A DNA stretch of 35,209 nt, from contig JAQXZB010000009.1 in the NCBI GenBank assembly GCA_029226975.1, positions 1 through 35,209 on the forward strand, in the 5' to 3' direction. Shown here piece by piece: positions 4,547 to 34,132 of the stretch. The stretch's first letter is position 1. Each line of letters opens with the position of its first letter. Position numbers and translations under genes: made by a program. The notes beneath the pieces were generated by a model that made no database searches, was not told where the DNA came from, and saw nothing but the letters and a program-made list of their open reading frames with translations. Origin of the DNA: Clostridiales bacterium. GTDB lineage: Bacteria; Bacillota; Clostridia; UBA1381.

Positions 4547-4558
4547 TGTATGCCCTCC

Positions 4559-5494: not shown

Positions 5495-5532
5495 ACAATA
5501 CTCCACCTTTCTTCATGAATTTTTCTGCCGCC

Positions 5533-5563
5533 CATACGCCCGGCACAGAAGCCGGAACGTATG
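5533..5563 (-). promoter_or_regulatory. Intercistronic hairpin between binding-protein and permease genes
   Basis: On the minus strand CATACG and CGTATG close an inner CCGGC/GCCGG stem with a 6-nt loop. The element sits in a 99-nt gap between the stop of the binding-protein gene (5594) and the first permease start (5494). Such hairpins commonly protect the binding-protein mRNA or reduce read-through so that binding protein is made in excess; that role is inferred here. Confidence 0.6.
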
Positions 5564-5593
5564 AGCAAAGCGTTTCTCTTAATAAGCCGACAA

Positions 5594-7006: not shown

Positions 7007-7049
7007 CGTTTTACTCCTTTTATAATTATTTTTTGTAAAATGCAACACC

Positions 7050-14281: not shown

Positions 14282-15907
14282 CTATTGTAATTGCTTTAAA
14301 ACGGCATAAATAATCTTTGCAGCCTGTGCTCTTGTTGCATTGGCAAGAGGATCGAATTTTGTATCCGACACACCATCTATTACGCCCATGCCGTAAAGTG
14401 TGCCGACCGCAGTCTTTGCATAGTCCGCAATCAAAGAATTGTCCTCAAATGCAGGCTCTGCCGTATTTGCCGTAGTACCCTTTGTGAGCAGTGCGTTATA
14501 GAGCATAACCGCCATATCCTGACGGGTTATTTTTGCGCCCGTACCGAATTTACCTTCTCCTGTGCCCTGTACAATATTGTTTTTATACGCAATATTTACA
14601 TATCTGCAAAACCAGTCGCTTTCGTCAACGTCCTCAAATACATTACCCGAATATGATGCGTCGGATAAATTCATCGCTCCCACAAGTATTTTAACAAACT
14701 CTTCTCTTGTTATTTTGTCATAGGGCTTAAACTTGTTGTTGTCCTTGCCGTCTATGATTCCCTTGTCCGCCAATGCTACAATTGCTTCAACTGCCCAGTC
14801 AACACCTTCTATATCCTCAAAAGTAATATTTATTTCGGGAGGAATGTCCTTGGTTTCAGAAACATTCCCCGTACTGCCTGTTACATGAATGTTGGGCGAA
14901 GTGCCGCCTCCGCCACCGCCGCCTGTACCGCCGCTTACGGTACTTTGAGTATTGTTCGCCGCATTGTTGTATGCCGATATGAATGTGCTTATGTTTCCGT
15001 AATCCTGTCCTACCAGATTTTTGTATATATCAGCATTCGATGAAACGCTTATTCCCAAATCGGCGCCGTATTTTGTCAAAACGGTTCTCAGTTCGCCGTA
15101 ACCGCTTGCGTGCTTTGCATATGTAAGCACCAAGGCCTCCTTAAAGGTCTTGACAAATTTATCAATATCGTGAATTTCCCTCAATGAAAGCTTTTGAGTA
15201 AAATACTGCCGGGTGCTTTCATTTTTGCATATCCCCTCATAAGCCTCGAGAAGATACGAATCCTCCAGATACAGCTTGTTAATCTGCGGATTTATATTTG
15301 AAATCATGCCGTCATTTAGCTTGTCGAAAATCAAAAAGCTGTTGAATATATCAATATTCTTTTCGCTTTGGGTATAATCAAACCCATTCTTTTTGGCATA
15401 TTCAAACAAATCCGTCTTTTTAAAATCCCCTCCCGCGTTCTTGTCGGCACTCAGATATATTATGTTTTCATCAATAACACCCTCAAATGCGGATATGTCA
15501 TTATTCTTAACCGCTTCATCTATGGCATCATATATTGTTTTTAACTCCTCGGCAGATATTATAACCACGTCAAAATCGGTTTTTTCAAGGTCCTTGCTGT
15601 GAGCAAGCCTGCCCTTGTATATTCCCTTGCCTGCATCATAATCGATGTCAAAGGAATATTTTCCGTCCTTTACTCTGCATTGTCCGCCGTATAGCAGCTT
15701 TGAATAATCAAAACTCTCAAAGCTCTCATCACCGTTTATGATTTGAATTGTAATAAAGCTGTCGTTAGCATCGCAATCCCCGCTTACGGTCATTTTCTGC
15801 GATAAATAATCGTATTTTATCAGATACGGTATTTCCGTCGCCGACACATTGATACCGAGTAATGAAAATGCTGTTAAAAATGATATTAGCTTAATTATCT
15901 TTTTCAT
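14282..15907 (-). CDS. Secreted protein with three C-terminal SLH domains
   Basis: Of 541 residues, 1-24 form a signal peptide (ends NVSATE). Residues 25-105 look like a beta-sandwich and 110-310 are helix-rich. A glycine linker (TGGGGGGGT) lies near 325-335. Three clear SLH repeats follow at about 360-412 (VDWAVEAIVALADKGIIDG), 421-476 (SDWFCRYVNIAYKNNIVQG) and 487-541 (YAKTAVGTLYGMGVIDG). This is the best cell-wall anchor in the window. No enzyme motif is visible. It lies 27 nt after the preceding gene and 13 nt before the other SLH gene, so the two surface proteins are probably made together. Its binding partner is unknown; display of glycan-binding or cleaving proteins is the contextual guess. 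Confidence 0.9.
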   Translation of the reverse strand: MKKIIKLISFLTAFSLLGINVSATEIPYLIKYDYLSQKMTVSGDCDANDSFITIQIINGDESFESFDYSKLLYGGQCRVKDGKYSFDIDYDAGKGIYKGRLAHSKDLEKTDFDVVIISAEELKTIYDAIDEAVKNNDISAFEGVIDENIIYLSADKNAGGDFKKTDLFEYAKKNGFDYTQSEKNIDIFNSFLIFDKLNDGMISNINPQINKLYLEDSYLLEAYEGICKNESTRQYFTQKLSLREIHDIDKFVKTFKEALVLTYAKHASGYGELRTVLTKYGADLGISVSSNADIYKNLVGQDYGNISTFISAYNNAANNTQSTVSGGTGGGGGGGTSPNIHVTGSTGNVSETKDIPPEINITFEDIEGVDWAVEAIVALADKGIIDGKDNNKFKPYDKITREEFVKILVGAMNLSDASYSGNVFEDVDESDWFCRYVNIAYKNNIVQGTGEGKFGTGAKITRQDMAVMLYNALLTKGTTANTAEPAFEDNSLIADYAKTAVGTLYGMGVIDGVSDTKFDPLANATRAQAAKIIYAVLKQLQ

Positions 15908-15934: not shown

Positions 15935-17932
15935 TTACTCCAATGTGATATTGTCGCAGTATGCAGCCATATCACTTTGCGTATTCCACAAAAATACTTT
16001 TACGCTTGTAATACCCATCAAATCCGGCAGCGTAAATGTCGGATTTTCATGCAGGGCAGAGCCGGGTCCTACATACGCAGTCATATTTTGAGCCATTACC
16101 GCTTTGTTTTTGTTGTAGTATATTACAAGCCACATAAGCGGAGCGCTCTCGTTTGCGATATTTACAAACTCGGTGTCAATCGTCATTTCCTTTCCCGCTT
16201 CAAGATCCGGCATGGCGTATACATAATTTCCGTCAATCTTTACACCCCGCAGCAATGCCGACATAGCCGCATCTCCCGTTGTAAACTTCATCACAAATTC
16301 ATTGTCAAGCCTTTTCCCGCTGAAGCTCATAACATCGGGCGATATTGTTAAAATATATTTCGTATTTCCCTTAAGCAGTGCGTTCGGTTTTATTATACAG
16401 TCGCTGTCATCGATTTCATATGTAAAATCAACCGGCGCTCCGTCCTCTGAAGTAAACGAAATTGCATTTTCAAAGCTTGCTGCGTTCATTTCCGGCCCGA
16501 AATCAATATTTATGCTTGACAGTGACGGCGAAACATTTCTTACTTTATCTTGAAGCTGCTCTCCGTTTAGGTCATAAATGGATATACCGTCAACTCCGGC
16601 ATTTGGCTCTTGGTTGTAAACGGACAGCTTGAAATTATCCAAATAGTTGGCCGGATAGGCGCTTGACCAGTTTCTTATTCTAAAATATGTCAAGGACTGA
16701 TCCACATAACCGCTGCCCACAATATTTCTAAAGCCCTTTGCCGTTACCGTTCCTCCGATTTGATTTCCCGATGCGTCATATACCGAGTGGGTTACCGTCT
16801 TTTTATCCAGATCCACTATGTTATTGATTGTTATCCACTGTCCGTTATCGGCACTTGCGAAAAGACAGCTTCCGTCCTTTACATATGTTGTGTGATATAT
16901 GTTCCCGTTTTCGTCTATGTATGCCATATTAAGTCCGTCCCCGGTATCGGCCGTAGGCAGAAGCTCTATCATATACGGGTTTCCGGATAAGTATACGTCA
17001 TATGAGAGATTGTATCTTCCTTTGGTAAGAGCATAGGGCATAGCTATGCGTATTCCCGAATTTACATTTGTCATAACCGCAGTTTTTGAGTCCGCTATAC
17101 CCTCCGGCACTTCAAAGGACAATGTGGGCGACATTGCCAGTATGCCTAAGCCCTGCATATTATCGGTTGTAATGTTTTCAAAGCTTTCGGATCTTAAAAC
17201 CAAATCCTGTGTATCCTCGCCCTCAATCCACTCTGCCGAAAAATTATCAACATATAGGCTGCTTGATTGTCTTATGTTTCTGAATCTGATTTTTGAAAGC
17301 TCCGTAAGCAGTCCGTAAGCGTTGGCATTTCCGGAAATTCCCGGCTTCAAATTACGAACTTGTTTAATAACATCTCCGTCCCTTGATGCCGAAACATTAT
17401 ATACCCCCTTGTCAAAATCCACAACGATTGAAAAATCATACCAGACATTGGGCGTATAATTCGAAACAAGCTCTACAGATGCGCTTTCCGTCTGCGTTCC
17501 GAATACCTTTGAGCCGCCTCTTGAGCAAACCGCATATAATCCCAATTCCTCCTGCTCATCGTCCGCATTGAGAAACGTTCTCTCGGGTATAAGCTCAATT
17601 GCTCCTCTCGTTCCCTCCTCAAACATCATTGAAGCCTTTATTCTGACCTTACCGCTGTTTATGGGTGCGTCAAGGTCATATGTAATGCAGGCATTCTGCT
17701 CAAACTTCAGATATTGATTGCCGCCATCGGAAACGATTTTTGAATCCGGTGACCACCACCAGCCGCCCTTTCTCCAGCCGTTGCTGTATAAGCTCTCCAA
17801 GGTGCAGTCGTCAAAGTTGTCGGATATACATAAATCATAACCCGCCGCCATGACATTTACCGATACAAGCATTGTAAAAATCATTGCACAAGCAACAGTT
17901 AAGCTTGTAATCTTTTTAATCATCTTTTTCAT
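15935..17932 (-). CDS. Secreted beta-sandwich/Ig-like protein, probable glycan-binding
   Basis: The 665-residue protein has a signal peptide ending near NVMAAG. Two beta-sandwich modules follow: about 30-230, ending LYVDNFSAEWI, and about 235-455, ending NYLDNFKLSVY. A Big_5 (SbsA-like) Ig domain lies at about 462-553 (INIDFGPEMN ... LKGNTKYILTI). A final domain of about 110 residues ends with VKVFLWNTQSDMAA. No catalytic signature was seen. The ATG at 17932 is preferred because GGAGGG lies about 9 nt upstream; the ATG at 17941 is only 0-1 nt from that site. It is encoded 18 nt after a secreted clan-A glycosidase and probably binds the same polymer. The domain pattern is clear; the function is inferred. 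Confidence 0.8.
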   Translation of the reverse strand: MKKMIKKITSLTVACAMIFTMLVSVNVMAAGYDLCISDNFDDCTLESLYSNGWRKGGWWWSPDSKIVSDGGNQYLKFEQNACITYDLDAPINSGKVRIKASMMFEEGTRGAIELIPERTFLNADDEQEELGLYAVCSRGGSKVFGTQTESASVELVSNYTPNVWYDFSIVVDFDKGVYNVSASRDGDVIKQVRNLKPGISGNANAYGLLTELSKIRFRNIRQSSSLYVDNFSAEWIEGEDTQDLVLRSESFENITTDNMQGLGILAMSPTLSFEVPEGIADSKTAVMTNVNSGIRIAMPYALTKGRYNLSYDVYLSGNPYMIELLPTADTGDGLNMAYIDENGNIYHTTYVKDGSCLFASADNGQWITINNIVDLDKKTVTHSVYDASGNQIGGTVTAKGFRNIVGSGYVDQSLTYFRIRNWSSAYPANYLDNFKLSVYNQEPNAGVDGISIYDLNGEQLQDKVRNVSPSLSSINIDFGPEMNAASFENAISFTSEDGAPVDFTYEIDDSDCIIKPNALLKGNTKYILTISPDVMSFSGKRLDNEFVMKFTTGDAAMSALLRGVKIDGNYVYAMPDLEAGKEMTIDTEFVNIANESAPLMWLVIYYNKNKAVMAQNMTAYVGPGSALHENPTFTLPDLMGITSVKVFLWNTQSDMAAYCDNITLE

Positions 17933-17950
17933 TGTATTCATCCCTCCAAA

Positions 17951-20900
17951 TCACTTTACAAAGTTCCATTTTCCGAACAATAAGGCATTTTTAGTTTGAC
18001 CTATACCCGAAGTATATTCCATAAAGCCTTTTCTTCCGTTTCCGTCATTGTCATTGACCAAAATCGAAAATCTACCCGGCTTGCTTACGTCCGGCACAAA
18101 ATCCTCTTTAAATATTACCTTCCATGGTATTGCGCATTCATATACGGTGTATGTATCATAGTTCTTAACCTCAATCTCAACCTCGTTAAGCTCTCTTGTA
18201 ATATTGGCGCTTGAGGTTTCATACATTGCCTTATATCTGTATGCCGCAGACCTGCCGCCCGAAAGCTTTACCAAACCGATTTCCGTAAATGCCGAGTTTC
18301 CGAGAGAATCGACAAATTCTCTGTCGTCAAAGCCCAACTGTATGCTGTCTCCCTGCCATAGCAGGCTCGGCTCTGAGGCGGCACTGTGCACATCGTCGGT
18401 AACCGTTGCCATGAAATAGAAATTCTCCTCATCCCATTTCGTAATCGCCGAGAAGGACAAATCGGAAGGTCCTTTCCATTCTCCGCTGTACATATACACA
18501 TCCTTTTCCTCATCGGCACCTACCCAGCTTCCCGTCCATTCGCCGTTTTCTATAACACCGTCTATCTTGGGCTTTTCGTAGGCGTAGCCCGACGATATAA
18601 ATTCCACCTTGGACTCGTTTGTGTCCACATATCCGCTGTCAAGGGTTGTGTCCACCGTTAAATCTATGGTTTTCTTTGTTACCTGTTCGGGAATATTAAA
18701 CAGAAACACTGCCTTTTCTCCCGGCATTAAATCGTTAAATCTCTTTGTTCCGTTATAGCTTGCCAAATTCTTTGGCTCTTTTATTTCCACATTGCCGCTG
18801 AGCCTTCCTGTGTTTGAGTTGTTCACAACTTCCGTGCGTATTCTCCAATGGGTGTTTGAATTGAGCACCGCCTGCTCCGAACTTACCGAAACCGTAATGG
18901 GGTCTTTATACTCTATTCTGTGCTCAAAATTGTAATATACATTCCCCTCATCATCGGAAATAATTATTCTTATGTTTTCGGGTGAATTTATGTTTTCACT
19001 TGTTTTTAAAACCACCTCGGCACGGTTGTTTACAAAGCCTTTGTTTTCAAGCTCAGTAATGTTCTTTGACTCAATAACCTTGATGTTCATATTCTTATCG
19101 CAAAGCTTTGTAAATCCGAAACGCACCTCATCGTTTGATGTTGCCTGTGCATAAACCGAGCCGAAATCCAAATATTCGCTTTTTGCGGCGTCCTTTAATT
19201 GGGTAAAATCCCCGATTAAATAAACCGGCACTTGCGATACGGGGATTGTGAAAACGCCCGTTTCGGAATATAAGGTGTCAACCTTGTTTCCGTACATATC
19301 ATATAAATCCGCATATTGACATCCCAAGGAATAGCTCTTCTCTTTTTCTTCCTCTCCCGACATCAACAGCAGCACATTTTTCTTCATTTTATTGTTGTAA
19401 AAGCTTGCCGCGTATATTCTTCCGTCCTGTAAATGCTCCACATAATCGGCATACTTGCCGCAGAACTCGTTCATTGTATTTACAGCCAGAAAGCTCTCCT
19501 TTGCGGCGTTTGGAGTATTGTCCTTATCATCATACCAGTTTATAAGTCCCCAGCAGTATTCCTGCTCCCAGTCGCGGTCACGGTCGGGGAACTGGAACTG
19601 AGTAAACATATCCGCCAAATCATACATCTTCATAACTGCCAGGAATCGCACAAAGTTTGATGCCTGCTCAACACGGGTAAATCCGCCCATATATGTTGAA
19701 AAGCCTCCCTCTGTGTACCATATGGGCTTTTCATCTCCGTACTTTTTCATAAGCTCCTTCAGTGCCAAGCCTTCCTCTACGGTACGGTATTCACGATATT
19801 CTCCGGACCAATCGTAGGGGTGAACACTTACCATGTCCATGTAATCATATCCGCCGGCTTCAAATACCCGCTCTATCCATTCAAGATCAATACTCGCCGT
19901 ATCGCAGCCTATTACAACCGCATCGGGGTTAACCTCTTTTATTTTTTTATATGCCGCCTTGAGCATTTTCGCATAGGTTTCCGGCGGCTCGGACGCATTG
20001 TTAAAGCCCGAATGATTGTATTCATTCCATATCTCAAAATATTTGACAGTACCCTTAAGTTCCTGAACCATAAACGCGCAGTAATTCGCATATGCCTCTA
20101 TCGCCTCATCCGAGGACGGTGTTTTTCCGTTATCGTAGAACTGATTATAATAACATAAAATCAGCAAAGGTTCTATTCCGTTGTCTTTCATTTCCTTCAA
20201 CTTATTTTTGTATGCATCAGGAAACGTTAAAACACCCTTTTCCTTTTCAATCTTTTCCCACAAAATCTCATCTCGAACAACATTCATACCTGCCATCTTT
20301 ATAAGATCTGTCTGCTCCTTAATATCCTTTACCATCCATCCGACAAGCTGATAACAGGTTCCCAAAAGCGGGTTTCTGTCCTCGTCCGCGGTGACCTTTG
20401 ACACCGAAAACTCCTGTGTTTCGGCAGCCGTATATTTTTCTTCGGGATTGTCGTCATACCAACACGTCTGATTTAACGTGATATTATACAATCCGTAAAT
20501 GCCGGGATTTTCAAGCTCGATTTTTTGCTCCTTAATCTCGCCCGGCGCAAGCTTAACCTCTTTCTTTTCAAGAGTTTTTGTATAATACTGTGTATCCGCG
20601 TCATAAACGTACTCATATTCGACGGTTATGTTTTTTTCAGATTTATTTATTGTTTTTTGGTTAAAGGAAATATAATCCGTCATCTCATAAATATTTCCCA
20701 ATTTATCAAAATCATATATCGTAGACGCCGGGTTTTGCGGCTCGGCTCTCTCTATTTTTACATTACCGAATATGACGTCATCTTCAGACATTCCGGTAAA
20801 GGTATCCCAGATACCGATACGGAAGTCACCGACCTTGTCAAGCTTGTTTGAAAGACGCATATCCTCCAAATAATATGTATATGTTTTCCATGTGTTTGTA

Positions 20901-21349
20901 TTTGTCAATTCCACCGTTCCGGCGCTTCTCCAGCAAGTGTTCTCAACGGCCGCTCCGTTTTCATCAACACCAAGCCAAAATTGCGATTGAGGATGATACG
21001 AGTCATAATTAAGCGAAAACTTACCCGTCCCCTTATCGAAATATTCAATCGTTACAGCCATGGGAGTGTATTCCGGCAGATTATACATAAGCTTATCGTC
21101 AACATCAAACATAATGTATAATTGACCCATTGACTTAACGGTAGTAAGCGCTTTTTTGCCCTGTACCATCGTTTCTGTCATTCCATATTTTTGAAATTCC
21201 ATATTAACCGGATTATCCATGTCCGCAAAATCAACATAAGCGCTGAAATCCTCTGTATAAGCGTTCGGTATATCACCATCCTCGGCAAATACCGGGCATG
21301 AACCGAAACATAGTATTAAAGTCAAAAGCAAGCTTATAGTCTTTTTCAT
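17951..21349 (-). CDS. Secreted clan-A glycoside hydrolase with CBM9-like C-terminus
   Basis: The 1132-residue enzyme starts at the ATG at 21349 (AAAGGTGG about 10 nt upstream) with signal peptide MKKTISLLLTLILCFGSC; a longer frame to 21415 would add a charged, non-signal leader. Residues 30-215 look like a carbohydrate-binding beta-sandwich. A TIM barrel spans about 325-640: FEIWNEYN gives acid/base Glu443, SVHPYDW lies on the next strands, and WYTEGGF gives nucleophile Glu547, the clan GH-A retaining pair. Beta domains follow, and 920-1130 (KIDGVIENGEW ... DDVHSA ... WQGDSIQLGFD) is CBM9/DOMON-like. It should cut a polysaccharide or glycan outside the cell. The family within clan A (GH39-, GH5- or GH30-like) could not be fixed. 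It is paralogous to the broken clan-A gene two genes upstream in the operon. Confidence 0.88.
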   Translation of the reverse strand: MKKTISLLLTLILCFGSCPVFAEDGDIPNAYTEDFSAYVDFADMDNPVNMEFQKYGMTETMVQGKKALTTVKSMGQLYIMFDVDDKLMYNLPEYTPMAVTIEYFDKGTGKFSLNYDSYHPQSQFWLGVDENGAAVENTCWRSAGTVELTNTNTWKTYTYYLEDMRLSNKLDKVGDFRIGIWDTFTGMSEDDVIFGNVKIERAEPQNPASTIYDFDKLGNIYEMTDYISFNQKTINKSEKNITVEYEYVYDADTQYYTKTLEKKEVKLAPGEIKEQKIELENPGIYGLYNITLNQTCWYDDNPEEKYTAAETQEFSVSKVTADEDRNPLLGTCYQLVGWMVKDIKEQTDLIKMAGMNVVRDEILWEKIEKEKGVLTFPDAYKNKLKEMKDNGIEPLLILCYYNQFYDNGKTPSSDEAIEAYANYCAFMVQELKGTVKYFEIWNEYNHSGFNNASEPPETYAKMLKAAYKKIKEVNPDAVVIGCDTASIDLEWIERVFEAGGYDYMDMVSVHPYDWSGEYREYRTVEEGLALKELMKKYGDEKPIWYTEGGFSTYMGGFTRVEQASNFVRFLAVMKMYDLADMFTQFQFPDRDRDWEQEYCWGLINWYDDKDNTPNAAKESFLAVNTMNEFCGKYADYVEHLQDGRIYAASFYNNKMKKNVLLLMSGEEEKEKSYSLGCQYADLYDMYGNKVDTLYSETGVFTIPVSQVPVYLIGDFTQLKDAAKSEYLDFGSVYAQATSNDEVRFGFTKLCDKNMNIKVIESKNITELENKGFVNNRAEVVLKTSENINSPENIRIIISDDEGNVYYNFEHRIEYKDPITVSVSSEQAVLNSNTHWRIRTEVVNNSNTGRLSGNVEIKEPKNLASYNGTKRFNDLMPGEKAVFLFNIPEQVTKKTIDLTVDTTLDSGYVDTNESKVEFISSGYAYEKPKIDGVIENGEWTGSWVGADEEKDVYMYSGEWKGPSDLSFSAITKWDEENFYFMATVTDDVHSAASEPSLLWQGDSIQLGFDDREFVDSLGNSAFTEIGLVKLSGGRSAAYRYKAMYETSSANITRELNEVEIEVKNYDTYTVYECAIPWKVIFKEDFVPDVSKPGRFSILVNDNDGNGRKGFMEYTSGIGQTKNALLFGKWNFVK

Positions 21350-21378
21350 TCCTATAATCCACCTTTCTGCGAAAGATA

Positions 21379-21401
21379 CCGACGGCGATAACCGCCGCCG
21401 G
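21379..21401 (-). promoter_or_regulatory. Intercistronic hairpin ahead of the clan-A glycosidase gene
   Basis: CCGGCGGCG and CGCCGTCGG (minus strand) form a 9-bp GC-rich stem with one G-U pair and a 5-nt loop. It lies in a 99-nt gap, one of the two widest in the twelve-gene operon; the other also holds a hairpin. It may block exonucleases or set relative expression of the flanking genes. No U-run follows, so it is not a simple terminator. Confidence 0.55.
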
Positions 21402-21448
21402 TCCCTCTCGACCAATTACTCATTTAATCTTTAATTGACCCTCGCCAA

Positions 21449-24091
21449 TCAGAACTTAATGCCCGGAACCAAAGGATTGCATTTATCCAATCCGTTCCAA
21501 TACATGATCTTAAGGCTTGCCGCACCTTCGGGCAGTGTAACACTTCCGAAATCGGCAGTTTTTGTGCCTAACTCATATGCCGACAACTCAATCGGACTTG
21601 TCATAACATCCAAAAGCTGTCCCTTTTCATTGTATATTGCCGCAATGGCAACATTTGCCCTTGCCTCACCGGTATCATTTTCGGTGTCTATGCTTACTTT
21701 CCAGCTGCCGCTTGTAACGTCCGCAAAAGTGCCTACCGTTGTTGTATCATCGATTGTGAAATTGCCTATTGCGTTGGGGTTGTACTCAACCTTAATGTTA
21801 TCCAACTTCACATCGAACATACACGCAAGGCTCTTGTATTGTGTTGTGTCAATCGCCCAGCCGTACCATACCTCCTTAGTATCGTCAGCCGCATCTTTGT
21901 AAATGCAGTTAGCATCTATCGACGCAACCACAGTAGTTGAATTTCTCGGAGAAATTCTTGCTACCAGTCTTCTGTTTGCAATATCCAGTGATGCCGAATA
22001 TGTATACCAGTTGGACTCTAAAACAGCAGGATTGCCGTTTGCATCTTTATACTCCACACCGGTGCCATCTACACCGAACGCACGAACATGAGAATCGGCA
22101 TCATCCACATACATCAGCGTCATTACTTTTCTTCTTGCGGCATATTGGTCTATCTCACCCGTAAATACCGCAACATCCTTTCCGCCGTAATAGAAATCAT
22201 ATTGAACGTTAAAGTTTTGAGTAGCTACTGCGTTTGTAAAATCCAACGCCCACACATCTGTCCAGAGACTGCTGGTCACCTGCATATACTTATTATTTGG
22301 AGTTCCTCCTATAATCGGTTGTGTTGATCCTGATGTAATACGAACACCGGCATACTCACTCTGTGCCGTATAATCCTCAAAATTCTCCTCAAACAGCGAA
22401 TTTTTGCCGATTACCTTGATGTTTTTGGTGTATGCTTGTGCCATATCATATCCGTGATATGATTTCAGATTGCTCATATTAAGCACTGCATTCCCCGATA
22501 CAATGTCCTGGTTAAATGTCATTGTATATGTCTTAAGGTCGCCTGAAAGCTTGCCTGTATACGGAACATTTGCGTCATTGTTTGTAAAGCTTATGTTATC
22601 CGAGGTCATTGTTGAACGAGCCATTTTGTCGCTAAAGGCAATATCCACGGACTTTACTCTTTCCGAGAAATTATTGAGCACCTCGCCTTTTCCGTTCTTA
22701 TATGTAACAGAAGTAACAACGGGAGCTTCATAAACCTCGCTGACATTTATATTATCAAGCGTTCCGTTAAGAAGAACCATAAGATTTTCATAGCTTGTGT
22801 CCGCTATAGCGTAGTTCCACCATACGTCGTTATCCTTATCCTCTTTATAAATAGCTGTTTGATCAAATGAAGCAACTGCTGTATTGGTTCCTTTTTCGGT
22901 TATTGCTGCGGTCAGCCTTCTGTTTTCCGTATCAAGTATTGCGGAATAGCTGTACCATTTTCCTGATGTCAGTGTGGCATCATTGCCGCTTGCATCTTTA
23001 TATTTGGGTCCAGTTTCATTGGCAAAAGCAGCAATCTTGCCGGTCGAACCGTCATACCACATTATTGTCATAACTGTTGATGATGTTACGTTATCAAAGC
23101 CTTTTCCGTCAAAATCACCGACAAATACGCCACCCGTTTTTCCTTCATAATAGAAGTCATAGTCCACAGTAAACTTTGTTGTGTCTATAGGTCTGTCAAA
23201 ATCAAATCCATGTGATTCCCAGCTAACAGCATAGCTTATGCACTTGTTGTTTGCGTCCGTAGGATCAGTGGTTACCGATGATATTGTGTCGGTAGTCTTT
23301 GCTTTTCTGAGAGGTTTTATTGTTTCTCCGTCAAAGTTTTCTTCAAACACCGTCTGAGAATTAGCAATTTCAGCTACTTTTACATTATCAAGATTACAGT
23401 TACGCAGAGTTATGAGGTTTTCAAAGCTTGTGCCTTTTACTGCATAACCCCACCATGCATTCCCTGTCTGACCGCCGTCTTTATAGTTAACATCACTGTC
23501 AAAGGAAGCAACCGTATCACTCTTTCCTCTTTCGGTTATTGTTGCAGTCATTCTCCTTGTTCCGGTATACAGTGTTGCTGAATAGCTGTACCACTTTCCC
23601 GATTCCAGTGTGGCATTCGATGTACCGTCCGCAGTTTTATATTCTATGCCTAAACTGTCATGACAAAACGCCCTAATCTCACCGCTTGTGTTTGTATACA
23701 TTATGGTCATTGTTGTAGAAGTCGCCGCATTCGTGTTGCCCATGCCGTTTATGTCACCTACAATTACCGCATCTGCTTTTCCGTCATAATAGAAGTCATA
23801 GTTTACCGTAAAATTCGCTGTTGATATAGGTCTGTCAAAATCAATCGCATACGGATCCCATGTATCACCATGGTATACATAGTGGTTTTGGGTACTTTCT
23901 TCTGTCTTCCATTCCGCTGGTATGCCGCCCGGTTTTTTAAGAGATATGTTTGAAGAATCCTCGAAATTATTCTCAAACACAACCAAGTCCGATTCGGCTG
24001 TTGCCGCACCTGCCGAAATACTGCCTATTGCCGACAATGCCATACATCCCGACAGAGCTGCGCTTAACATTTTTTTCATTACATTTTTCAT
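21449..24091 (-). CDS. Secreted protein with three copies of a LamG-like module
   Basis: The 880-residue protein has a signal peptide (MKNVMKKMLSAALSGCMAL, cleavage near AGAATAE). Modules of about 200 residues start near 37, 249 and 565. Each runs from an opening FEENF-type strand, through FTVNYDFYYDGK, a TIM(Y/W) strand and SGKWYSYSATL, to a closing LDNIKV. An Ig-like domain (about 455-562) separates modules 2 and 3. The last ~105 residues form a domain ending LKIMYWNGLDKCNPL. No catalytic signature was seen. The module is also found twice in the protein encoded just upstream in the operon. It resembles concanavalin-like lectin folds, so glycan binding is the likely role. The ribosome binding site AAGGAGG lies 7 nt before the start. 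Module boundaries are approximate. Confidence 0.82.
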   Translation of the reverse strand: MKNVMKKMLSAALSGCMALSAIGSISAGAATAESDLVVFENNFEDSSNISLKKPGGIPAEWKTEESTQNHYVYHGDTWDPYAIDFDRPISTANFTVNYDFYYDGKADAVIVGDINGMGNTNAATSTTMTIMYTNTSGEIRAFCHDSLGIEYKTADGTSNATLESGKWYSYSATLYTGTRRMTATITERGKSDTVASFDSDVNYKDGGQTGNAWWGYAVKGTSFENLITLRNCNLDNVKVAEIANSQTVFEENFDGETIKPLRKAKTTDTISSVTTDPTDANNKCISYAVSWESHGFDFDRPIDTTKFTVDYDFYYEGKTGGVFVGDFDGKGFDNVTSSTVMTIMWYDGSTGKIAAFANETGPKYKDASGNDATLTSGKWYSYSAILDTENRRLTAAITEKGTNTAVASFDQTAIYKEDKDNDVWWNYAIADTSYENLMVLLNGTLDNINVSEVYEAPVVTSVTYKNGKGEVLNNFSERVKSVDIAFSDKMARSTMTSDNISFTNNDANVPYTGKLSGDLKTYTMTFNQDIVSGNAVLNMSNLKSYHGYDMAQAYTKNIKVIGKNSLFEENFEDYTAQSEYAGVRITSGSTQPIIGGTPNNKYMQVTSSLWTDVWALDFTNAVATQNFNVQYDFYYGGKDVAVFTGEIDQYAARRKVMTLMYVDDADSHVRAFGVDGTGVEYKDANGNPAVLESNWYTYSASLDIANRRLVARISPRNSTTVVASIDANCIYKDAADDTKEVWYGWAIDTTQYKSLACMFDVKLDNIKVEYNPNAIGNFTIDDTTTVGTFADVTSGSWKVSIDTENDTGEARANVAIAAIYNEKGQLLDVMTSPIELSAYELGTKTADFGSVTLPEGAASLKIMYWNGLDKCNPLVPGIKF

Positions 24092-24144
24092 TGCAATTCC
24101 TCCTTATTTTGGTTGTTGTACATTGTTTTTAGTATATATTATTT

Positions 24145-27100
24145 TCATGGCACAAGTTCTGCGTCCTCAATCACCGGAATCATGTTTTTATTCCACAAAA
24201 ACCATTGAATTTTTTCCGTATCATCGGAATTGTAATCATTGCTGTCTGTGCCGCTGCCTTGGGGAATCGTTATTTCGATTTCACCCGATGTTTCGCCGGT
24301 ATCATTCCATTGAAGCACGCTTTTGTATGCCGACATCAATTTTCCACCTCCTCCCTTTACAGCGCTCATGAAGTGAAGCTCCTCACCGAGGCTCTCCTTT
24401 CCTTTAATTTCAATGACGCTGCGAAGCTTATCTCCGGGGTTAAGTTTTTCTCCGGAATACGGTTTATTATTCACATAGTAGCTTATTTTAATTTCATCAG
24501 CCGCATATGCATTATAAGTACCGTCTTTATCTTTTCCGTTATAAACATAAATCCCGTAGTATTCATCCGCATCAACCTTAAAGCTGAATTCAAACTCGCC
24601 GTATTTATCTACTTTGGTTTGATTTGCATACTCTATAGGTTTTTGCGGCTTGACCTCGTTTTGTACAAGTACGGTTGCAAATGTGCCGGGCTTGGCATTT
24701 TTCCCCTTAACCGTAATTATGTTATTGTCGGAGGTGATTTCTAAGGCGTTTTTCTTTGAGCATACGATATATGCAGGTTCCTCACAAAGAGCGCATACAT
24801 TGCCCGCCGCAAATCCGCCAATCTCATTTCCGTCAATATCATACATTGTAACCTTTTCGTTGGGGTTAATATGCAGTACAAGCGAATCCCCCTCATCGGT
24901 TATTGCAATTTCGCCGGTATTGGCATTATCCTCCGCAAGCCGTATATTTTTTGAAGCATTATTTATCTTGCTTGTCCACAGGGCGAATATATCGTCTTGG
25001 GTACGAGTATTTTTAAATCTGTAGTATGTATATTGTCTTGTCGCATATGTACCTGCCGCCTCTTTGCTTACAAAGTCTGCTTCTGCAAACAGCTTATTGT
25101 AAAACGCCAATGCGGTAAATGACGATTTTGCGGTATGGTCCAATCTAACCATGCCGAAATTTTCTTCTCTCCCGTCACCGTAGCCGCACAAAAACGTGTA
25201 CAAAATCAATTTTTCCATTCTTGGATGCGTTTGTGCCATCAAGGCGGTTCTTACAAGATTTACACCTTGCTCATACTCGTTATATCCCGTTTCCTCCGAT
25301 GCGCTCGTTCCGTACTCGGACACCCATATGGGCTTATCCAGCCCCGCATCGCTCAACGCCGTACTCACATAATCGATATGCTCGTAAAAATCAAAGTCGA
25401 ACTCATCCGAATAGCATCCGTTATTTGCCTAAGGGTGTATGGAGAGTGCGTCAAAATAATTATCCACATTCGGCTGTGCTATGAAATTATGTAAAAATTT
25501 ATTCGCCTCTGCTTTTTTCATGCTGCAGAGTGCTCCCGCCAAAATAGGAACATTTTCCATGCCCGGTTTAATATTATTGTTCTCGTCATACTTAGCCGCC
25601 TTGTATACAGTCTTCATTATTAACGCATAATGCGCTCCGGTTACAAAGCTGTCAGCCTCATTCCAAATCTCAAAAGCCGATACACGGTCTTTAAAATGCT
25701 CAATCATAAATACGCAGTAGTTTTTAAACGCCTCGAAGCTTTCTTCGCCCGGCCACGGCGGATAAAAATTCAGTCTTCCGCCCTCACCGCGGTACAGGTC
25801 GTTGCCGTATCCCAATATCAAGAGAATTTTCTTTCCGTTTTTATGCAGCTCATTGATGTAGTTTTCATATTTCGCCGGGACATTATACTGCCCCTTGACG
25901 GTTTCCACATCTGACCATAGTATTTCATCACGAACCCAGCCCGTTCCGTTGTCGGCGGTAATATTGAGAAACGTTGTTACGTCCTCGTCTACAAGACCAT
26001 GATGCGTAGAATAGCCTAAAAAGTCATTGTCTGTATAATTGTGCTCCATTATCGAAAATGGCATTTCACCGCTGTAGCTGCCCAAGGGGCATCTTACGGT
26101 CACCTTAAATTTCACACAGCCTCTTACCTTGCTTATATCCTCATCAAAGCCTTCCAAAACGGAGGTTTTTTTGCCGAGGTCATAATTGTTTATGCTCTTT
26201 GTCAGGATTTTTTTATTTGTATTGACGTTTGCAATCTCATATGTAACGCTGCCTTTCATATTAAGGTTTGATGCGTTTGTAATCTTAGCGCATAACGTGG
26301 GCAGATTGTCCTCGGTATACCGATACCCGTCCGCAGGATTGCCGATTGATGCGACAGCACCAATCACATCGGCATTGCTCATAACGCCTATATTGTCAAG
26401 CTTTACGCTAAACATTGTAATTAGCTGAGAAAATTCTCCGCCCTCGGCTATCCAGCCGTAATAATCCCCGGTGCCGGTTTTTCTTGCTATATTTGACAAA
26501 GACGCGCTTCCAACGATTTCTCCGCTTGTATTTTTTATTGAGAGGGTAACAGAGCGGCTTACTGTATTTAAAACAGCGCTGTAGCTGTACCAATTGCCGG
26601 CTTGAAGCACCGTTTGTGTGCCGCTCTGTTCGCCGTTTTCGGTTATATTCGGGGCATGACCGTCATTTAAGCAATATGCCTCTCCGGAGGCGTTGACCCA
26701 CAGCAGAGTCATCATTTTGCTTATATCGGAGCTGTTTCTGCTTCCGGTAAAAATTGCGAACTGTCTGCCCTCAAAGTAAAAGTCGAAGTTTATTTTAAAC
26801 TCGGTTTCCTTAACAGCTTCATGAGTCATTGTCATTGACGTCCAATCGGGTGCTTTGACATTTATGTATTTATTACCGTTTTCATTTACAATCTCCGCCG
26901 ATGCGTCTGCGCCGTTACATGGTAAAAAGTTATTGTAAGTATCCGAGTCGAAATCCTCGCCCAAATAGATATTTACCCCATTTGCGGACGCTGCCGACGA
27001 TACGCCCGTAACGCTTATATTGTCAAGCTTTACGCTAAACATTGTAATAAGCTGCGAAAACGCCGCGCCGTCGGCTATCCAGCCGTAATAATCCCCGGTG

Positions 27101-27690
27101 CCTGTCTTTCCGGCTATATTGGACAAGGACGCGCTTCCGACGGTTTCTCCGCTTGTATTTTTTATTGAGAGGGTAACAGAGCGGCTTACTGTATTTAAAA
27201 CAGCGCTGTAGCTATACCAATTACCGGCTTGAAGCACCGTTTGTGTGCCGCTCTGTTTGCCGTTTTCGGTTATATATGGAACATGGCCGTCATTTAAGCA
27301 ATATGCCTCTCCGGAGGCGTTGACCCACAGCAGAGTCATCATTTTACTTATATCGGAGCTTTCCCGGCTTCCGGTAAAAATTGCGAACTGTCTGCCTTCA
27401 AAGTAAAAGTCGAAGTTTATTTCAAACTCGTTTTCCGATATGGTTTCATGAGTCATTGTCATTGATGTCCAATCAGGCGCTGTAACTTGTATATACCTAT
27501 TGCCGTTTTCGCTCACAATATCCGCCGATGCGTCTGCGCCGTTACAAGGTAAAAAGTTATTATAAGTATCCGATTGGAAATCTTCACTTAAATAAACAGT
27601 CATTTTGCTTTCCGACGCAGCCGACGATATACCCGCAATGCTTGTCAGGCACAAAGTCATTACAAGAAACAGACTTATCAGTTTTTTCAT
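24145..27690 (-). pseudogene. Secreted clan-A glycosidase interrupted by one in-frame TAG
   Basis: A single frame of about 1181 codons is open except for TAG at 25429-25431 (codon 754). Layout: signal peptide (start at 27690, AGGTG 5 nt upstream), two nearly identical LamG-like modules (about 33-225 and 242-434), a TIM barrel, Ig-like parts, and a C-terminal domain ending IQWFLWNKNMIP. The barrel has acid/base Glu678 (FEIWNEAD) before the TAG and nucleophile Glu792 (WVSEYGTS) after it. The text around the stop is SIHP-stop-ANNG; the intact paralogue reads SVHPYDW, so a Tyr codon became TAG. The downstream part has no ribosome binding site, only an internal GTG at 25368. Without read-through, the 753-residue product would keep its binding modules but not the nucleophile. 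Elsewhere TAG is a normal stop (GH65, SLH gene), so mutation is likelier than recoding. Confidence 0.82.
26392..27594 (-). repeat. Tandem 627-bp direct repeat inside the broken glycosidase gene
   Basis: Two copies, about 27019-27594 and 26392-26967, repeat with a 627-bp (209-codon) period. Long stretches are identical at DNA level, for example GCGGCTTACTGTATTTAAAA at both 27181 and 26554. Differences are few and scattered. This points to a recent duplication or gene conversion of one binding module, and it is also a place where read assembly could misjudge copy number. Confidence 0.9.
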
Positions 27691-27725
27691 TTTGCACCTC
27701 ATCTCCTAACTTTCAATATTTATTT

Positions 27726-29624
27726 TTACAACAGATTTATAAACAGTGCTCCCATAACGGATCTGTTTTGGAAATTCACCCAACGGCCGCTTGTTACATA
27801 ATAGTAATCGGTTACAGGCACTCTGTCGGGAGTTTCACTTATAAAATCAAAGATTTTTCCATATACCAAATCCCTGTATTCCTTATCATCGCTCATCACT
27901 GTAGTCCATGCCATCCAATCCAATTTCCCGTAATCCGCACGGCAGTCAAGAGGCAATCCGTATCTGCACATTTTTGTTTTATACATTTCCACCTCCCGTT
28001 TATATGTTTCCTCGCCAAACAAGTTTAATCCCAGCAGCTTATCCCAAATCATATTATACTTTACGCTCCAGGTATTTTCGCTTCCGAAGGCAAGGATTGT
28101 GCCCATTTCGGCTTTCGTTTCCTTTTCCCATTTTGCCGCAAGCTCCATGGCTGTTTTTGTATAGCAAGCTTCATCAAACATTTTACCGTATGCGGCTATG
28201 GCTATAATGGATTTAATGCTCAAATTGCAGTTATGGGGCCATGACCCGGCGAAATCATCGGTACAAAGCTGTTCTTTAGGGTCATATCCGTTTTCAAGCA
28301 GGTAGTCTGCCCATACCTTTAAAAGGTCCTTATTTTCCAAAGCGAAAGCACTGCTGTTTTGAGCCTTACAGACTGCCGCTGTTGCAATAATTGCATTTCC
28401 GCATTCCTCAACCGGCATATGAGCATCATTTTCAAGCCCGTATGCCAGACCGTTCACCAGAGGATAAACACCGACATCGTGAGGAGCAAAGTCGTGATTC
28501 CATGCATTGCTTCTTGCAAGCTTGAATATCGGTCTTAACATACCCTTAACCAGTTCGGGATTATACTTCAAAAACAGCGGCATGGACGGATACGTAACGT
28601 CAAGGGTAGCCGCGCAGCCGTTACTGTAACATTCCTTTGAAATGAATATTATCTCTCCGTTCTCATCACATGACAGCTTATGCGCACCTATTGCCTGCCG
28701 GAAAACAAGTGAAACCACCTTTTCATATTCATAACCTATTTCTCTTGCTTCACTCATCAGGCGTTCATCAAAGTCCCGGCACATTTTTTTAATCTCGGGA
28801 TACTGCGAAACCGCCGTTTTTACCATTTCATCAAAGCTTGAAAACTCTTTTAAGTAATATTCATCAAGCTGTTTCCCGAAATATTCCAAGGGCTTTACAA
28901 AATTGTACGCTATCACCACAACATCGTTTGTTTTTTTGCTTTTCATGCCCAAAAGCGGCTGTTCATTACAGGCATTATATGCTTTATTTATATCAGCCTC
29001 CCTCGGAATAGGCTTATAAAGGCTCTTATCCCTTCCGTCAAGCAAATATGTATTCTTGGCGACCAGATGCAGCTCGCCCCAATTTACAAAGCAGTCGTCA
29101 CCGCTTTCTTTCAATATGTTCTGAACTTTGTTTTTACAAAAAATACTGTAGTCCGTTTTGCCGCAGACCACATCTTCTTTCCAGCTGTTCACGCAGCACT
29201 CCGCCGAAATATCAAAGTAAAAGGTTATATCATGCTCTTTGCCGTCATTTACTTTTATATCATATTCGATATAAGAAAGCGGTCTTGACAAGATATTTAG
29301 CTTATCCGGCAACAACGGAGTTACAAATTCCAAAGTTACGTCCACAATATCATTTTTAAATTTATACTCGGATATGAGCGGCTTAACTTCTAAAGATATT
29401 TGGGGAATAACCGCTGCAGGCGGTCTGTATCTGCTGCTTTCGGCATAATTTATACCCATAAGCGAGTAGTACTTTCCGTCTATCATAATTCCCGCATTCA
29501 TGCCGTTTTTTCTGCCTGCCCAATTTCTCGTCACATCTTCATTGAGTTTATCTGCAAAAGACCATATAGAAAAGTATGGATCTGTCGTAATAAGCGGTAC
29601 TGCTGTTGGTCTGAATTGTTTCAT
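27726..29624 (-). CDS. GtaA-like (DUF4965/DUF5127 family) protein, probable cytoplasmic hydrolase
   Basis: The 632-residue protein matches the glutaminase A-like family along its length. AVPLITTDPYFSIWS near the start followed by NWAGR is the family's hallmark N-terminal beta domain (DUF5127/4964). An (alpha/alpha)6-like domain follows, with TLDVTYPSMPLFLKYNP, APHDVGVYP, DDFAGSWPHNCNLS and LPLDCRADYGKLDWMAWT. The fungal name comes from an Aspergillus glutaminase, but bacterial members often sit in glycan operons, and an unproven glycosidase activity is at least as likely here. No signal peptide is present. It is the first gene of the long operon, 42 nt downstream of a good promoter, with GAGGAAA as ribosome binding site. 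Family assignment is firm; the reaction is not. Confidence 0.82.
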   Translation of the reverse strand: MKQFRPTAVPLITTDPYFSIWSFADKLNEDVTRNWAGRKNGMNAGIMIDGKYYSLMGINYAESSRYRPPAAVIPQISLEVKPLISEYKFKNDIVDVTLEFVTPLLPDKLNILSRPLSYIEYDIKVNDGKEHDITFYFDISAECCVNSWKEDVVCGKTDYSIFCKNKVQNILKESGDDCFVNWGELHLVAKNTYLLDGRDKSLYKPIPREADINKAYNACNEQPLLGMKSKKTNDVVVIAYNFVKPLEYFGKQLDEYYLKEFSSFDEMVKTAVSQYPEIKKMCRDFDERLMSEAREIGYEYEKVVSLVFRQAIGAHKLSCDENGEIIFISKECYSNGCAATLDVTYPSMPLFLKYNPELVKGMLRPIFKLARSNAWNHDFAPHDVGVYPLVNGLAYGLENDAHMPVEECGNAIIATAAVCKAQNSSAFALENKDLLKVWADYLLENGYDPKEQLCTDDFAGSWPHNCNLSIKSIIAIAAYGKMFDEACYTKTAMELAAKWEKETKAEMGTILAFGSENTWSVKYNMIWDKLLGLNLFGEETYKREVEMYKTKMCRYGLPLDCRADYGKLDWMAWTTVMSDDKEYRDLVYGKIFDFISETPDRVPVTDYYYVTSGRWVNFQNRSVMGALFINLL

Positions 29625-29975: not shown

Positions 29976-30815
29976 ATGTCAAAAAAATACTCACGCTTTA
30001 ACGAAGATATTTATCTCTATTACGGTTTGGAACATAATCCTATAAAAAGAGCCTTAATCGGTATTACATTTCCCGATGTCACATATGAAGTGGTTCGTGA
30101 TGTTTCCACCGTATACAGCATAGAATATGTATACAGCGGAGAATGTGTTATTCAGCATAATAAGGATTTTTTTGTAGCAAAGGAGGGCGATGCTTTTATT
30201 CTTAATCCCCACTCGTTTCACCATTATTACAGCAACCCGAAAAATCCGGTGAAAAAAATATTCTTAAATATAGATCAAGGATACTCCATTATAACCCATC
30301 TTATAAATGATTATAATCTGAAGAATTTCATTCACCTTCCCGAATTCAATAATCCGTCATACTGGGAAACTTGCTTTGAGGCAGCAAAATCAAAGGACAG
30401 AAATCTGTCTAAAATACTTACGTTCAGCATACATAATATTATCTCGGACATAGCTGAAAAAAAGGCGTTGGCGGAAAACAGTATGCTTTATACGGTAACC
30501 AATCTTAAAACTTATTTTGAAAAGAATATTACAAAATGTGTAACATTGGACGATTGCTGTGAGCTTGTGCAGCTTGAAAAATCACAGCTGCATAAGCTTT
30601 TCAAGGAAACCTTCGATATAACTCCCATTGCATATTTTAATAAGATGAAAATCGATGACGCAAAAACAATGCTCAGCGGAACAGATGTAAGCATCACGGA
30701 AATTGCCGCAATTTACGGTTTCTATGATGTGTATCACTTTTCCAAAGCATTTAAGAAACACATCGGTATGTCGCCCACCGAATACAGAAAAATCAATAAT
30801 ACACACAACCGCTGA
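29976..30815 (+). CDS. AraC-family transcriptional regulator
   Basis: The 279-residue protein has an N-terminal cupin-like sensing domain (about 20-150; YSGECVIQHNKDFFVAKEGDAFILNP) and a C-terminal double helix-turn-helix (about 185-275). The second helix-turn-helix, VSITEIAAIYGFYDVYHFSKAFKKHIGMSPTEYRK, matches the AraC signature (key residues I-A-x-x-x-G-F and F-x-x-x-F-K-K-x-x-G-x-x-P-x-x-Y-R). The ribosome binding site GGGAGGG lies about 6 nt before the ATG. It is transcribed divergently from the glycan operon with 351 nt between start codons, the standard arrangement for a sugar-responsive activator of the adjacent genes. The inducing sugar cannot be predicted. Confidence 0.93.
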   Translation: MSKKYSRFNEDIYLYYGLEHNPIKRALIGITFPDVTYEVVRDVSTVYSIEYVYSGECVIQHNKDFFVAKEGDAFILNPHSFHHYYSNPKNPVKKIFLNIDQGYSIITHLINDYNLKNFIHLPEFNNPSYWETCFEAAKSKDRNLSKILTFSIHNIISDIAEKKALAENSMLYTVTNLKTYFEKNITKCVTLDDCCELVQLEKSQLHKLFKETFDITPIAYFNKMKIDDAKTMLSGTDVSITEIAAIYGFYDVYHFSKAFKKHIGMSPTEYRKINNTHNR

Positions 30816-31774: not shown

Positions 31775-34132
31775 TTAATAACAATTCGGTCGGCGAAATA
31801 CCGTAAAGCCTACACTTGATGCTGTGGATACCACTACGTTATTTGCACTTGATGAGCAATGAATAACAAGGATATTTCCGCTTATGTCCTGTCCCACAAC
31901 AATACCGACATGGCTGTAGCTCGGCAGAAATGCCAGATCTCCCGCCTGCACCGCTGATGTTGATACAACTACACTTCTGTCACGCTGTCCGTATGTGCCG
32001 TCACCGACATACATACCGCTGTTATTAAACACCCACGATACAAAACCGGAGCAGTCAAGACCGTATGCTCGGATTGTTCCCGATGACGGGCTTCCTGCCG
32101 CTGTTACTCTGCGCATACTTCCCCATGCGTTGTCCCAGCCTATGGCACTTGATTTGCCGCCCCAAAAATAGTTTACCTTTCCCACAAGTGAGCCTGCATT
32201 TTTTACTACGTCTTTTTGCTTCTGCGGCAATGATGAGGGCAGTCCGTTTATAATACTCTGCACATCGGCATTGGTAATTGCAAGGCTGTGGCTTGATGCG
32301 GTCAGTACATCGCCATGTTCGAGCAGGGTTTCAACCGCTTCACGCTGCTTTCCCGTCAAGCCATACTCATCCATAAGTTCTTCTTTTGTTTTTCCACTGA
32401 TTGTAATAGTCAGCTTTTTGGTCGTTTCCGTTTCAGACGCCTGTGTTTCCTCTACGGTATATTCAACTGTATTAGATGCTCTGAAATATTCCTTTAGTTT
32501 CTCCGCCTTTGCATCATCAAATACAACAACATCCTCTGCTGTGTTATCCTCCGCCCCTGCTGTCTTTGCCGCAAACACGGCTATAACAATATTTGCATTT
32601 GTCTGATTATCAATGACTTCGACCTCTGTATGCTCTACGGACAGCTCTATATCCTCTGCCGCCTGTGTAAGCTCAATATTATATTCGGATATAATCTGAG
32701 AAAGCGGAATAGTGCCTGTTTCCGTGACTTCCTCAGATATAAAAATCCCGAAAGGACTTGCCGCTATTGCTGCTATGATAATAACAATTATAAGCACCAC
32801 AAGCATCACTGCCCAACCGCCGAGAGCCGCCAGCGCAGAAATAAGTTCTTTTGCTGCCGCTGCGACAGCCTGTGCAACTTTAACCGTAACTTTGAAAGCA
32901 GTCTTTACAGCCGCCTTTGCCGTCTGTACACTCCGCCGTGCAAGCTCTTTTGAACGTTTAGCCGCCTGTTTTGCCGCTTGTTTTGTAACCTGTTTTTGAG
33001 TTTTAACAGTCGCCCGATTTGCTGATTTCTTTGCTGTACGCTGTGCTGTTTTAGGCATACGAATTTTCCTTGCAGGCTTAATCGAAGAAGCTTTATTCTG
33101 CACCGATTTTATTGTGTTTTTAGGCTTGTACTTTATAATTCGTTTATCCTGTGAGATAATATAAGGATTTATCTCTGTGCCGGATGGCTTTGCCTTTACA
33201 TCTGCCACATTGCGAGCGTGTGAATGGATATAACTATCTCTTGTTTTTATATCTGTCTTTTTGACCTTTATCTGCTCTTGCGGTGTCGGTTTCTGCTTTG
33301 GCATATGTACATCTGCCTGAATGGGATTTTCCGATACAGGCTGAATATCTGTAACCTTGATTTCAGCCGTATTTTGAATTTCGGATTTTGTTTTGAGTTT
33401 ATTTTGCACATATTTTCTTGCAGCTTGATTTTTATTATCAGCAGTCTTTAATGTCTGTTTCTCCTGCTTTGCTCTGACTGCCTGCAAGGTTTTTGGCTTT
33501 ATCTTCTGTGCCTTTGACTTATATACCTTATCGGATTTCAGACGATAATTTCTTCCTCCGGCAGCAGACTTGGTTTTCACATATTCCGCTTTGCTCTTTA
33601 TTCGAAGCATCGGTTCCGGTGATCTTTTCGTTGCTTCTGAAGATAAAACTACATCCTTAGTCTTCATCTTTGCTGACTTAACAGCCGCCTCCTGCCGTGC
33701 TTTAATTTTCATCTGCTCCTGAGGAACAGTCTTATTTTCCGCCTGTAATGCTGCTGTTTTTGGAGCATTAATTCTTTGCAGCCGAACAGGCTCCTGTGTC
33801 GGAATATCCGACACAGGTATGTCATAGGTTTGTCCTCTGCTTCGATGCTGTATTTTGTTCTTTACATATCTTGCAGACTTACGCACCGTATCAGCCGAAG
33901 CATAAGCAGTGCTTTCCGCCTTGTCCTCAACCTCGTCAACCGCATAATTTTCAGGGCGTTCCATCTGATCCGAAGTCTGTTTCTGAAGCTCTGTCTTGCT
34001 CTTTACATACTGACGCTTTAAGCTGTCCACCGCACTCATCTGAACAGTAGCTTTTCCTCTTGCCGAATCGGAAGTTTTCAGCTTGTGTGTATTACTCCTC
34101 ACATTCTTCGGCTTGCTTTTTATATCTTTCAT
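31775..34132 (-). CDS. CD1108-like conjugative-element protein with NlpC/P60 peptidase domain
   Basis: The protein has about 785 residues. Residues 1-430 are very Lys/Gln/Ala-rich, basic and probably disordered. One transmembrane segment lies near 438-465 (WAVMLVVLIIVIIIAAIAAS). An extracellular linker follows, and the C-terminal NlpC/P60 cysteine peptidase domain has the full triad: Cys694 (GLDCSGF), His741 (SYSHVGIVVG) and His758 (VIHCSSS). This is the plan of the CD1108-type protein of Tn1549/CTn conjugative elements, thought to open peptidoglycan for the mating channel. The ATG at 34132 shares its A with the TGA stop of the VirB4-like gene and has GGGGAGGGAG just upstream; a GTG at 34135 would add one residue. 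Translational coupling is likely. Confidence 0.9.
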   Translation of the reverse strand: MKDIKSKPKNVRSNTHKLKTSDSARGKATVQMSAVDSLKRQYVKSKTELQKQTSDQMERPENYAVDEVEDKAESTAYASADTVRKSARYVKNKIQHRSRGQTYDIPVSDIPTQEPVRLQRINAPKTAALQAENKTVPQEQMKIKARQEAAVKSAKMKTKDVVLSSEATKRSPEPMLRIKSKAEYVKTKSAAGGRNYRLKSDKVYKSKAQKIKPKTLQAVRAKQEKQTLKTADNKNQAARKYVQNKLKTKSEIQNTAEIKVTDIQPVSENPIQADVHMPKQKPTPQEQIKVKKTDIKTRDSYIHSHARNVADVKAKPSGTEINPYIISQDKRIIKYKPKNTIKSVQNKASSIKPARKIRMPKTAQRTAKKSANRATVKTQKQVTKQAAKQAAKRSKELARRSVQTAKAAVKTAFKVTVKVAQAVAAAAKELISALAALGGWAVMLVVLIIVIIIAAIAASPFGIFISEEVTETGTIPLSQIISEYNIELTQAAEDIELSVEHTEVEVIDNQTNANIVIAVFAAKTAGAEDNTAEDVVVFDDAKAEKLKEYFRASNTVEYTVEETQASETETTKKLTITISGKTKEELMDEYGLTGKQREAVETLLEHGDVLTASSHSLAITNADVQSIINGLPSSLPQKQKDVVKNAGSLVGKVNYFWGGKSSAIGWDNAWGSMRRVTAAGSPSSGTIRAYGLDCSGFVSWVFNNSGMYVGDGTYGQRDRSVVVSTSAVQAGDLAFLPSYSHVGIVVGQDISGNILVIHCSSSANNVVVSTASSVGFTVFRRPNCY

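Follow-up and report, generated by a model that had tools for sequence, protein, structure and literature searches.

Surface glycan capture in described systems

In the polysaccharide utilization loci (PULs) of Bacteroidetes, non-catalytic surface glycan-binding proteins are encoded beside endo-enzymes and an importer, with a lipoprotein anchor and a SusCD transporter completing the system. For Gram-positive gut-type bacteria that lack SusD-like proteins, little is described of how polysaccharides are retained at the cell surface. A Gram-positive PUL (gpPUL) has been defined as one locus that combines a degrading enzyme, a transport system and a regulator (PMC5320581). Among described domains, the closest to the modules considered here are Pfam family PF22585 and the accessory domain (residues 410-616) of BT_1020 (5mqr), a beta-L-arabinofuranosidase of family GH142 (PMC7263609); fold, remote profile homology and attachment to glycan-degrading enzymes are shared with both, whereas our modules do not score with the PF22585 model. 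The sandwich fold is also common to CBM66 (4azz) and CBM40, for which a Pfam scan detects no sequence relationship, and to laminin G/LamG-like domains, which additionally share a conserved mid-strand tryptophan and a weak neurexin match of our broadest profile, but whose Pfam models do not match our modules. A comparable case is domain 4 of AbnA, an unnamed ConA-like CBM that binds arabinan (PMC9110388).

The window, by which the whole 35,209-nt stretch analyzed is meant (contig JAQXZB010000009.1, assembly GCA_029226975.1, Clostridiales bacterium, UBA1381), encodes all parts of a gpPUL as defined (PMC5320581), namely GH39-like, GH38 and GH65 enzymes, an ABC sugar importer with a solute-binding protein and two permeases (3629-7048, minus strand), and a divergent AraC-type regulator (29976-30815, plus strand). 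In contrast to that definition, this locus type adds a constant layer of SLH-anchored, multi-module, putative binding proteins. A functional likeness to the surface glycan-binding proteins of Bacteroidetes is possible, although the anchor (SLH) and the transporter (ABC) are unrelated to theirs. The reading that we favor, with a probability of roughly two in three, is that the modules form a CBM-like, so far uncatalogued branch of LamG/ConA domains and serve as the tandem, multivalent glycan-capture arm of an S-layer-anchored gpPUL. Neither the module nor this locus type turned up in the literature searched. What is new is a branch within a well-known type of module, and its link to an SLH surface system is unusually clear.

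Genes of the locus

The module genes and their neighbors form a block on the minus strand. An 880-aa protein with a signal-peptide-like N-terminus, as judged by eye, carries three modules (21449-24091); no SLH domain was found in it by Pfam scan, and a Big_5-like Ig linker lies 3' of its second module (22505-22729; 17.1 bits, below the Pfam cut-off of 23.6). A ~100-residue C-terminal domain follows the third module (21452-21769) and has no Pfam match; in relatives, many secreted proteins have a comparable tail at their end or as a link (loci L058, L059, and L022), as does one further protein of the source genome (G000:C103). Next to the three-module gene lies a gene for a GH39-like enzyme with a C-terminal CBM9-like domain (17951-21415, minus strand), which scores 34.0 bits against the Glyco_hydro_39 cut-off of 26 and has 5jvk and PslG as its nearest solved relatives. 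It is followed by a 668-aa protein (15935-17941, minus strand) with two distant modules, a Big_5 domain and a C-terminal domain, in this order, and the adjoining gene encodes the anchor protein SLH541 (14282-15907, minus strand), which consists of a conserved N-domain (14888-15835) and three SLH repeats. The conserved block has another SLH protein, SLH857, encoded at 11695-14268 on the same strand. In the Pfam scan the SLH repeats reach 113 bits in SLH541 and 45 bits in SLH857, so that the proteins adjoining the modules do carry SLH repeats.

The second GH39-like enzyme, a two-module glycosidase (24145-27702, minus strand), has an in-frame TAG at 25429-25431, which splits its gene into a 757-aa open reading frame (25429-27702) and a remainder in the same frame (24145-25368). 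Three neighboring genes also terminate with TAG, hence read-through was rejected and the codon is taken as a genuine stop. It lies inside the GH39-like domain and could reflect either a true pseudogene or an error of assembly; as the gene stands, its predicted product would comprise the two modules with part of the catalytic domain. Related loci encode unbroken counterparts, in which two modules precede a GH39-like domain (L058:11117-14803, 1228 aa; L074:9848-13891, a 1348-aa frame), and an intact homologue reaches 28.1 bits against the Glyco_hydro_39 cut-off of 26, below which the broken copy of the window falls.

Three further regions of the window were noted. Between the GH38 and SLH857 genes, a 516-aa protein (10131-11681) has no match in the Pfam scan. 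A protein encoded at the head of the gene block (27726-29624) has a glutaminase A-like architecture (DUF4964/DUF5127/GtaA) and no obvious signal peptide. At the window end (31775-35199), genes for an NlpC/P60-CHAP protein and a TraG/VirB4-like ATPase suggest a conjugative element beside the locus.

Five close and two distant modules

The initial annotation had proposed a ~200-residue module with five copies in two adjacent genes, and this was borne out, with three copies in the 880-aa protein (A1, 23363-23989; A2, 22727-23362; A3, 21776-22405) and two in the 757-aa frame of the broken glycosidase (B1, 26998-27609; B2, 26374-26979), all on the minus strand. A profile of the five modules gives high scores at these five places alone in the 2.8-Mb genome, with E-values of 5e-89 to 3e-96 (A1, 3.4e-96; A2, 4.6e-89; B1, 1.1e-91; A3 and B2 likewise matched), but as it was built from the same five modules, the independent test is pairwise BLASTP. 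By this measure A1 and A2 are 45% identical (E 5e-55), A3 is 39% identical to A1 and A2 (E 1e-36 to 3e-37), and A and B modules share 25-33% identity (E 1e-15 to 3e-24). The alignment of the five has 28 invariant columns, and together with BLASTP it recovers the motifs described earlier with slight variation: EENF, ENNF or EDF in the opening strand, VNYDFYYDG, VDYDFYYEG, VQYDFYYGG or INFDFYFEG in the second motif, GKWYSYSA, SNWYTYSA or GNWYSYSA around the WY pair, and LDN(I/V)xV at the close. The most conserved residues (F10, F72, G84, W134, Y137, and D203 in A3 numbering) match LamG-type tryptophan and terminal-strand positions and therefore look fold-defining rather than part of a binding site.

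B1 and B2 are identical at 87% of protein and 90% of DNA positions and differ by 27 synonymous and 28 non-synonymous codons among 202; they are a recent tandem duplication. All five close modules fall into one clade (support 100/96) when 72 modules are placed in a tree, hence they were amplified within this lineage.

Two more distant versions had been suspected in the 668-aa protein, and both proved to be true homologues (D1, 17225-17836; D2, 16607-17203; minus strand), although the connection runs only through intermediate sequences of related genomes. Direct pairwise BLASTP of D1 and D2 against the five close modules gives no significant match (best E 0.03). Both were found at E 8e-5 in a second search round that included relatives (genome G043 and other genomes of the family), and the 72-member profile, which includes them, matches the two at E 7e-34 and 3e-26. 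Reverse searches seeded with D1 or D2 agree weakly, reaching A1/A2 and B1/B2 at 0.004-0.008. In the tree of 72 modules both branch apart from the five-module clade, and D2 clusters with modules of fused SLH proteins of two related genomes (G010 and G031; support 98/89).

Fold and family placement

A concanavalin-type sandwich had been predicted from the sequence, and AlphaFold2 models of A3 (pLDDT 81.7, pTM 0.85) and D1 (pLDDT 80.3, pTM 0.83) bear this out, both being modeled as ConA-like and mostly beta. The alignment behind the A3 model (13 sequences) holds no D-type sequences, while that behind D1 (72 sequences) holds both types. Foldseek matches comprise calreticulin and legume/L-type lectins. 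In VIA-align the top match of both models is BT_1020 410-616 (A3: Z 15.5, rmsd 2.9, 167 residues; D1: Z 18.0, rmsd 3.3, 175 residues), followed by L-type lectins and the CBM40 of a Vibrio sialidase (Z 16.5 for D1). A3 also superimposes on CBM66 (4azz; Z 13.0, rmsd 2.6 Å, 147 of 165 residues), as it does equally well on many other ConA-like chains. ConA-like folds occur also in proteins that do not bind sugar, and the fold shared with BT_1020 and lectins is no proof of function.

The module could at first not be placed in a named binding family. This holds in so far as Pfam and NCBIfam scans place none of the window modules in any model above threshold; it does not hold in the sense of isolation, because at the profile-profile level the module joins PF22585 and LamG-like domains. 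The PF22585 gathering cut-off (27 bits) is reached by no window protein and by none of the 13 core modules, and the source genome has no match to this model at E 0.001. Eight of the 72 wider relatives do match PF22585 ("Sialidase-like CBM"; best E 2e-4). When aligned by hhalign to PF22585 members from the same order, the 13-member profile reached E 4.2e-9 over 146 columns, the 72-member profile E 8.5e-18 and the five window modules alone E 2e-4 (46% probability). Five unrelated domains of the same loci served as controls and gave no domain-length match, with at most 1.5% probability against the 13-member profile and one 15-column boundary match at 31% against the 72-member profile. Among PDB sequences, the 72-member profile found a neurexin LamG domain (5e-6), BT_1020 (5mqr; 0.004) and, at chance level, the extracellular arabinanase chain 5hon (0.19); the five- and 13-member profiles found nothing credible there. 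Laminin G domains in Pfam gave no match above cut-off with the window proteins, the 13 core modules or the 72 members; a PHROGs search gave no match, and NCBIfam yielded only isolated chance-level matches with the 72 members, one of them to a hyaluronan-binding family at 0.005. The profile and hhalign matches show remote homology to PF22585 and place the module, distantly, at the PF22585/LamG end of the ConA superfamily and outside any curated family. With 72 members aligned, the family is of a size usual for Pfam or CAZy and is at present missed by annotation pipelines.

A conserved block and fusion to an S-layer anchor

The block recurs in genomes G043 and G109, on two contigs in each, and in G357, which belongs to a different family. 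It comprises the solute-binding protein, two permeases, the GH39-like/CBM9 enzyme, the module-GH39-like enzyme, one to three multi-module proteins, SLH541 and SLH857. The SLH541 N-domain has no Pfam match and is widespread in the bacterial family (23 carriers among 70 genomes; loci L107-L144), where it occurs either with SLH repeats only (~540-600 aa) or in long frames (1270-1660 aa), of which eight contain modules. Modules are found in 18 of 38 SLH541 neighborhoods, as separate proteins in 10 and fused in 8, and a GH39-like homologue in 27; about half of the neighborhoods have no module, partly because contigs end. In the eight fusions, of which seven have clear module matches and one (L117) a weaker match, the modules, Ig domains, SLH541 N-domain and SLH repeats constitute one protein with the modules ahead. 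The two-module protein and SLH541, encoded by adjacent genes in the window, thus correspond to a single protein in these relatives. The fusion is the strongest indirect evidence obtained here for a cell-surface location of module function. Together with the conserved linkage, it argues for the suggested surface role beside enzymes and an importer, as far as gene context can tell, and makes the module a concrete, testable lectin-like candidate.

Capture arm, spacer or dock

Considering fold and gene context, the seven modules probably grip a polysaccharide at the cell surface while neighboring enzymes cut it. Each module would bind a short stretch weakly, and tandem copies would raise avidity. 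The SLH proteins would fix the binders to the wall; cutting of the held chain would fall to the GH39-like enzymes and uptake of the cleavage products to the ABC importer. As in CAZy modules, the units are discrete, non-catalytic and contiguous with an enzyme, namely in the GH39-like glycosidase that carries B1 and B2, in its intact homologues (L058, L074) and beside a PL11 domain (L192). Against capture counts that the core family is rare and that the five window modules go back to an expansion specific to their lineage. The rarity is concluded from direct scans, which found no close relatives in the genome contig collection and none in plasmids; within the bacterial family, 10 of 70 genomes carry the core family at 1e-6, and in the class as a whole 5 of 391 do so at 1e-8.

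Low sequence conservation outside the core residues, arrays of up to seven tandem modules in one protein (L127) and the neurexin LamG match would also suit structural spacers or LamG-like adhesion units for protein or cell binding, which would keep enzymes or anchors at a distance from the wall, with glycan binding absent or incidental. This explanation is unlikely, as the modules lie repeatedly in or beside glycoside hydrolases, a rhamnogalacturonan lyase/esterase protein and ABC importers, and their nearest structural domain belongs to a glycosidase (BT_1020). The modules might instead dock, like cohesins and dockerins, to the SLH541 N-domain or to each other, with substrate bound elsewhere, for example by the CBM9-like domain, which would explain why the three-module protein lacks an anchor of its own yet is encoded near SLH proteins with module-fused homologues; however, modules stay in tandem even when fused, for which docking gives no need, and occur where no SLH541 gene is seen nearby (L060, L062, and L192), so that docking is very improbable. 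Least probable is that the modules are catalytic ConA-fold members (GH16-, GH131- or lyase-like), since despite GH131 among the structural matches of A3, the arrays of copies stand next to a catalytic domain distinct from them and the sole invariant acidic residue in 13 members is D203 in the last strand, with no conserved acidic pair.

Candidate ligand

If the modules do capture glycans, a first guess suggests a rhamnose-containing pectic glycan as ligand. The guess derives from a lyase/esterase homologue and from a gene resembling alpha-L-rhamnosidase in each of two sister loci. In a distant family of the same phylum, three genomes have one module copy each, in reading frames of 2132-2150 aa; the one annotated among these giant proteins (L192) carries the module at residues 1037-1205 (E 8e-13), preceded by a PL11 rhamnogalacturonan-I lyase and a GDSL esterase and followed by a YxiM-type esterase, the esterase parts being annotated as acetylesterase. 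The GH38 and GH65 genes that the window itself carries give no hint of a rhamnose-rich pectic ligand. A wider proposal, possible yet on balance doubtful, is that the modules, the SLH541 N-domain and the second SLH protein are, for Gram-positive bacteria, a dedicated and widely reused equivalent of the surface glycan-binding proteins of Bacteroidetes; the module would then be the first of a new CBM family for rhamnose-rich glycans, be they pectic or bacterial exopolysaccharides. The source genome has PL11-type rhamnogalacturonan lyase genes elsewhere (G000 contigs C67, C32, and C36), and contig C36 also bears distant modules (71318-78162).
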